Assembly (NCBI RefSeq): GCF_944390845.1
Contig: NZ_CALXRM010000003.1
Location: 1-64,000, forward strand
Source of the DNA: an uncultured Brachyspira sp.
GTDB taxonomy: Bacteria; Spirochaetota; Brachyspiria; Brachyspirales; Brachyspiraceae
Direction of reading: 5' to 3'
Length of the DNA stretch: 64,000 bases
A model generated the notes under the pieces. It was not told where the DNA came from. It saw nothing but the letters and a program-made list of their open reading frames with translations, and searched no databases. Shown in pieces: positions 47,322-47,977 of the stretch (its first letter is position 1; every line of letters begins with the position of its first letter). The translations under genes were made by a program, and so were the position numbers.

Positions 47322-47678
47322 ATGGAAAAATTAGAATTTAAATGCATTGATTTTTTTAATAGATATATTGTAGAAGAAATTGTTTATAAAGATGACGGAG
47401 AAAATATTGTTCCTGTTAAAGTATTCAGCCGTTCTACTTTGGGAAATAAATTTAAAAGTGATGATGTTATAAGTATTAATCGTCCAAGCTTTAATGAAAA
47501 TATAAAATATGTGAGAGATAAAGAAGAAAAAATTATTGATGATGATATTTTTAAATGGCTTGATGTAAGAATAAATAATAATCTCGCTACAAGTCTTCTT
47601 GATGAATGGAGTACAAAAGATATTAATGAGTTTGCTCAGGTGATAAAAAGTTTTTTGTTAGAGAGACGAATTATGTAA
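47322..47678 (+). CDS. Tail assembly chaperone, short form (gpG-like)
   Basis: 118 residues, acidic and helical, starting at an ATG with ideal AAGGAG. No sequence signature, but it lies exactly where tail chaperones lie (tail tube - chaperone - tape measure). Near its 3' end it carries a -1 slippery heptamer T TTT TTG (47651-47657) in the right phase, leading to the extension 47687-47977. In lambda the short product gpG coats the tape measure protein. Confidence 0.65.
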   Translation: MEKLEFKCIDFFNRYIVEEIVYKDDGENIVPVKVFSRSTLGNKFKSDDVISINRPSFNENIKYVRDKEEKIIDDDIFKWLDVRINNNLATSLLDEWSTKDINEFAQVIKSFLLERRIM

Positions 47679-47977
47679 TAAATAATTTGTCAAAGTTTTC
47701 TGTAATAGAGCAGACTGAAATTGATAATCTTGTGAATTATGCTTTTTATAATAGAGAAGTTAAATACGATGACTTTTGTTATTTTAATGACGGACTTATT
47801 AGTTTGTATACATCTTCTTTGTTTTGGAATAAAATAATATTAGAGGCTTGGTATCAAATAATAAGCGGAAGATTTGTTTACTGTGTTTATGATGAAGATG
47901 ATTATTTAAGATTCGGACTTAATTATGCAGTATTCAGATTTAAAATTTTGATAGATAAGTCTATACGTAATAATTAA
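47322..47977 (+). CDS. Tail assembly chaperone, -1 frameshift fusion (gpGT-like)
   Basis: Reading 0-frame codons AGT TTT TTG, a -1 slip on TTTTTTG continues as GTT AGA GAG ACG AAT TAT GTA ATA, with no stop up to 47977. This gives a fusion of about 218 residues. The downstream frame (FSVIEQTEIDNLVNYAFYNREVKYDDF...) has no ATG or ribosome site of its own, only a TTG at 47687, so expression by frameshift is the best reading. In siphophages and myophages the long form recruits tail tube subunits to the tape measure. Confidence 0.65.
47651..47657 (+). promoter_or_regulatory. -1 ribosomal frameshift site TTTTTTG
   Basis: X XXY YYZ heptamer in 0 frame (ag T TTT TTG), seven codons before the 0-frame stop. 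The -1 frame is open on both sides. No strong downstream pseudoknot is obvious by eye. Confidence 0.65.

Follow-up and report, generated by a model that had tools for sequence, protein, structure and literature searches.

A predicted G/GT-type tail-assembly chaperone gene with programmed −1 frameshifting in the Brachyspira gene transfer agent VSH-1 (BhGTA)

Introduction

The tail proteins gpG and gpGT of phage lambda are linked by a frameshift at the slippery sequence G_GGA_AAG, and the −1 frameshift of Escherichia coli dnaX has an upstream stimulator that resembles a Shine-Dalgarno (SD) sequence. Members of the genus Brachyspira carry VSH-1, which is among the few gene transfer agents (GTAs) proven by experiment and has been renamed BhGTA (PMC9662315). 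Here we analysed 64,000 nucleotides from an uncultured Brachyspira sp. (assembly GCF_944390845.1, contig NZ_CALXRM010000003.1, positions 1 to 64,000 of the forward strand), called the window throughout. A preliminary description of this DNA had singled out positions 47322-47977 as a tail-assembly chaperone gene with a programmed −1 frameshift. We conclude that these positions very probably hold a two-product G/GT-type chaperone gene of VSH-1, with a short product, G, and a longer product, GT, predicted to arise by −1 frameshifting from G into an extension, T. Direct support for this comes from the site and its phase, the geometry of the overlap, conservation, selection on both frames, the gene neighbourhood and the replacement of the pair together with the tube and tape measure genes.

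Results

Slippery site and reading frames in the window

G is an open reading frame (ORF) at 47322-47678 on the plus strand, with 118 codons encoding 118 amino acids and an ATG start preceded by the SD sequence AAGGAG at 47308-47313. Near its end lies the heptamer TTTTTTG (47651-47657, plus strand). Codons of G begin at 47652 and 47655, which puts the heptamer in the phase T_TTT_TTG, an exact X_XXY_YYZ, and the 0-frame stop, TAA at 47676-47678, comes six codons past it. The −1 frame is open over 47630-47977, where its stop ends, and T (47657-47977, plus strand) comprises the 106 codons after the heptamer. The preliminary description thus had the coordinates right: it placed T TTT TTG in slippery phase near the end of a small ORF, and its claim of a −1 frame open across the site and for 100 codons beyond falls only slightly short of what we found. 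It had also held that the −1 ORF has no good start of its own, and indeed the sole ATG, GTG or TTG near the opening of this ORF in the window is TTG at 47687, 36 nt past the heptamer start and just past the G stop. By computation, G is acidic (isoelectric point 5.0) and the slippage product GT would have 218 amino acids and 26.1 kDa. The junction peptide predicted for trypsin, SFLVR, is uninformative; Glu-C should release FAQVIKSFLVRE from GT versus FAQVIKSFLLE from G.

The heptamer alone is uninformative, as TTTTTTG occurs 59 times in the window against 55 expected. Within window ORFs of at least 60 amino acids on both strands, 269 canonical heptamers stand in phase. Only five of these are followed by a −1 extension of at least 60 codons: three in one ORF nested within a larger ORF, one in an ORF of the leader repeat (see below) that enters G, and the T_TTT_TTG of G itself. 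Because the motif is so common in the window, the claim must rest on comparison between loci.

Six nucleotides before the heptamer, the sequence AGGTGAT (47638-47644, plus strand) is the exact complement of the 3' end of the 16S rRNA, which we read directly. In 15 of the 21 loci compared below, this element (−9.4 kcal/mol) is the strongest such match within G. This putative internal SD could possibly stimulate frameshifting at the heptamer.

Conservation and selection across Brachyspira

The comparison set comprised 26 Brachyspira genomes, of which 22 contain a homologue of G; 21 loci, each from a different genome, carry a close homologue. All matching loci in the titled collection belong to Brachyspira. 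An unconserved heptamer had been named beforehand as one of two observations that would count against frameshifting. The heptamer is in phase as TTTTTTR at all 21 loci, 20 times as TTTTTTG and once, in Brachyspira innocens, as TTTTTTA, and its distance to the 0-frame stop is six codons in every case. Over the 266-299 nt beyond that stop the −1 frame has no stop in any of the 21 loci, compared with 9-13 stops in frame 0 and 15-23 in frame +1. Just past the 0-frame stop, indels of 12 or 15 nt distinguish the species; being multiples of three, they preserve the −1 frame. The Leu codon within the heptamer is TTG or TTA only, both of which keep the site slippery, whereas the next Leu codon varies among TTA, CTG, CTA and CTC. 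The ratio of nonsynonymous to synonymous substitution rates (dN/dS) has a median of 0.11 in G and of 0.23 in T, indicating purifying selection on both halves and bearing out the earlier view that the module is still under selection. Conservation lifts the heptamer of G above chance.

In the window the pair is preceded by a tube-like gene and followed by a tape-measure-like gene. Together with the −1 overlap, this agrees with the G/GT arrangement of tailed phages proposed in the preliminary description, with the reservation that no family or fold match was found.

A diverged allele and an exchanged tail module

Two genomes, G021 and G022, carry a diverged allele (L026/L027) with 30% identity to the window type in G and 36-37% in T. 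T again lies in the −1 frame and overlaps G at the same place as in the window; a placement of T in the +1 frame was rejected on inspection. The sole canonical in-phase site found in this overlap is A_AAT_TTC (L026:1845-1851). As far as these sequences can tell, the predicted recoding has persisted although its own slippery signal was replaced.

The GTA cluster of G022 (L069, G022:C50:1-20000) is a mosaic. Its head genes (portal, protease, cement and capsid) are 93-97% identical to those of the window, while all genes from the connectors through the tape measure, including tube, G and T, are of the diverged type with 28-51% identity. The joint exchange of G, T, tube and tape measure is expected if these must fit one another. 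The tape measure encoded there has 883 amino acids versus 388 in the window, and matches a tape-measure PHROG (E 5.6e-6).

Alternative explanations

If T were a separate protein, made by re-initiation past the G stop or from TTG or another weak start, the heptamer would be incidental. The TTG at 47687 would suit this, as would the ATG or GTG that some species show at comparable offsets. However, from the last upstream stop to some 25 codons beyond the site, the −1 frame of 8 of the 21 loci contains no ATG, GTG or TTG; the start-like codons found in the opening of the −1 ORF at the remaining loci differ in type and offset. Translation of the downstream ORF from its own start had been named beforehand as the other observation that would count against frameshifting; no conserved start was found for it among the 21 loci. 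Indels that keep the −1 frame relative to G would moreover be unneeded under separate translation, and the heptamer itself is conserved; we consider a separately translated T quite improbable. The fusion might instead come from slippage of RNA polymerase on the T run, for which six consecutive T residues in an AT-rich genome offer an opportunity. Six T is short for polymerase slippage, the run is in the exact phase for tandem slippage, and the diverged alleles use A_AAT_TTC in the same overlap, without a long homopolymer, all of which makes a transcriptional origin very improbable.

A single ORF split by a frameshift mutation in a decaying prophage would give a similar picture in one genome, and GTA clusters are indeed prophage-derived, the present one being partly dispersed. 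The same geometry in 21 loci from 21 genomes, the low dN/dS in both frames and a T without stops contradict a broken gene, which we regard as scarcely credible. The frameshifting could also be real but serve a different protein of the tail or neck, the pair then not being a G/GT chaperone. Neither G nor T matches a family or fold, and frameshifts are also used by some other phage structural genes. Against this, the position between tube- and tape-measure-like genes, the small acidic G with the overlap at its 3' end, and the exchange of the pair together with tube and tape measure are all as expected for G/GT, and a different tail or neck protein seems improbable to us.

Several observations weigh against the G/GT reading itself. 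Searches of Pfam, PHROG and NCBIfam gave no significant family match for G or T. Foldseek with their AlphaFold models (mean predicted local distance difference test, pLDDT, 90.6 for G and 79.6 for T) found no match in the viral library, nor, for G, in the PDB. Similarity to a known chaperone family was therefore found neither in sequence nor in fold; these families are very diverse and such similarity is not a strict defining feature, so that the counter-evidence is weak. Downstream of the heptamer we found no conserved RNA structure (z −1.9 to +1.2 in seven species), and 6 of the 21 loci have a weakened SD-like element. The three codons of the heptamer are synonymously near-invariant, yet 30 columns of G show no synonymous change, so that this is not unusual alone; a drop in synonymous rate at the heptamer was dropped as stand-alone evidence for being too weak. 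In many of the other species, the tape-measure-like gene is about 30 to 250 kb distant and the tail module is split there. Finally, the GT fusion is a prediction from sequence.

Further searches for relatives were also negative: PDB sequence searches with G and T profiles gave nothing significant, matches to T among 296 genomes of the phylum were restricted to Brachyspira, an IMG/VR scan with T found no relative, and neither did a search of phage records with the capsid protein. The name G/GT is based on arrangement, recoding, position and evolution, not on homology to known chaperone families.

The surrounding gene transfer agent cluster

The structural cluster at 37224-49404 contains portal-, protease-, cement-, capsid-, connector- and tube-like genes, then G/T, then the tape-measure-like gene; these names are based on weak profile matches, gene order and molecular weights. 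The major capsid protein (41528-42571, plus strand; 347 amino acids, 39.4 kDa; weak PHROG major head match, E 0.011) is, by its size, probably Hvp38. It is found in 21 of the 26 Brachyspira genomes, in nearly all as a single full-length copy with 89-100% identity, a pattern that agrees with the account of VSH-1 (PMC9662315). Given the conserved single-copy cluster and the size of the capsid protein, we assign the cluster to the VSH-1/BhGTA gene transfer agent, not to an ordinary prophage. The probable tail tube protein (45160-46557, plus strand; 465 amino acids, 52.6 kDa), named from its position and a weak Pfam Phage_tube_2 match (E 0.0032), is perhaps Hvp53, judged by size.

The tape-measure-like protein (48238-49404, plus strand; 388 amino acids) is 51% identical over its C-terminal 330 amino acids to the 883-amino-acid protein of L069. 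Its gene is directly 3' of the chaperone in the window and in six other genomes (G004, G006, G007, G011, G014 and G025). With a rise of about 0.15-0.16 nm per residue, the window protein predicts a tail of about 58-62 nm; the reported length of the VSH-1 tail is 65 nm (PMC9662315). The tape-measure-like gene at G009:C2:97986-99144 is fragmented, its parts lying in different frames and interrupted by internal stops, through either gene breakage or an error in sequencing. Neither chaperone nor capsid genes are present in G001 and G013, both fairly complete (98-99%) Brachyspira genomes, and G001 also has no tape measure, which suggests loss of the GTA there.

Other genes were observed in and around the cluster. 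Between the portal- and protease-like genes, 38607-39506 holds an 85-amino-acid ORF and an IrrE/ImmA-like metallopeptidase gene (Peptidase_M78, E 8.5e-8); both genes are present in L035 and L036 at 51-69% identity and were not found in L034. Just past the tape-measure-like gene is a gene for a RelB-type antitoxin (49468-49713; Pfam E 3.2e-8). At the other end of the window, the minus strand of 135-12810 carries cas1, cas3, cas5 and a Cas_CXXC_CXXC gene with a long CRISPR array (135-4254, repeat ATTTATATTCCAGTATGGATAGATTAGAAAC), a type I system.

A repeated leader hairpin upstream of G

G is preceded by a leader repeat (46980-47322, plus strand) of 4.3 tandem copies of an 81-bp unit, unique in the genome. 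In every unit a hairpin pairs CTCCTTATATTTTT with AAAAAATTAAGGAG, and that of the last copy (47245-47313) takes in the SD of G; on folding of the unit, AAGGAG is paired with CTCCTT (z −4.35). Many other Brachyspira species have one to four copies of related units, with a period of 76-81 bp, upstream of G; none were found in a more distant group that includes B. pilosicoli. Among ten species, two base pairs of the hairpin have changed on both sides in a compensatory manner, and in two species a one-base deletion in one arm is matched by one in the other. Rfam gave no match in the cluster. An ORF in the repeat (47104-47334) was rejected as coding, since the period of the repeat is not constant but ranges over 76-81 bp between species.

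As a lead only, the hairpin may limit initiation on G. Tentatively, this would suggest control at two levels, with −1 frameshifting setting the ratio of G to GT and the genus-specific hairpin, in up to four tandem copies that pair the SD of G, setting the total amount; we would sooner doubt than adopt this scheme. If true, it would be a previously undescribed translational switch on GTA tail assembly.

Discussion

Under the G/GT reading, the majority of ribosomes would translate G and terminate six codons past the heptamer. A minority would slip back by one base at T_TTT_TTG, where tRNA-Phe and tRNA-Leu could both re-pair to TTT TTT, perhaps aided by the internal SD-like AGGTGAT, and would continue into T to make GT. 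We infer the slippage itself, its rate and the binding roles. By analogy with the lambda scheme of G/GT roles (PMC5009743), many copies of G and few of GT would coat the 388-amino-acid tape measure and T would recruit tube subunits; the outcome would be a short flexible tail, from which the chaperones then depart.

On this reading, a missing tail-assembly gene is named in an experimentally proven GTA, and GT is a predicted product that ordinary gene callers would miss. Selection would retain even the recoding signal for tail assembly across a genus that is unable to spread a virus by it. That it is maintained by selection supports the idea of a benefit to the host from functional particles.

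The locus shares features with three known systems. As in E. coli dnaX, an SD-like element lies a few bases upstream of an X_XXY_YYZ site; unlike dnaX, the Brachyspira site has no clear downstream stem-loop and the element is not universal. With VSH-1/BhGTA (Brachygtaviriformidae, Brachyspigtaviriform stantoni) it has in common the genus, a cluster with capsid, tube-like and tape-measure-like genes, and a capsid and chaperone that are single-copy across most species. The open literature searched, whose scope did not extend to the primary papers (Matson 2005, Stanton 2009), contained no report of a frameshifted chaperone in VSH-1. Frameshifted tail chaperones are already known; their identification in the VSH-1 GTA appears to be new in the open literature, which is not certain, and the tandemly repeated leader hairpin that pairs the ribosome-binding site of G likewise seems new as far as that literature shows. 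From lambda gpG/gpGT the Brachyspira pair differs in its site, T_TTT_TTG, in products of 118 and 218 amino acids without detectable similarity, in the short 388-amino-acid tape measure and in the GTA setting. What it shares with lambda is the plan of the locus: two ORFs that overlap at the end of G, a −1 shift predicted shortly before the G stop, and a place between the tube and tape measure genes.
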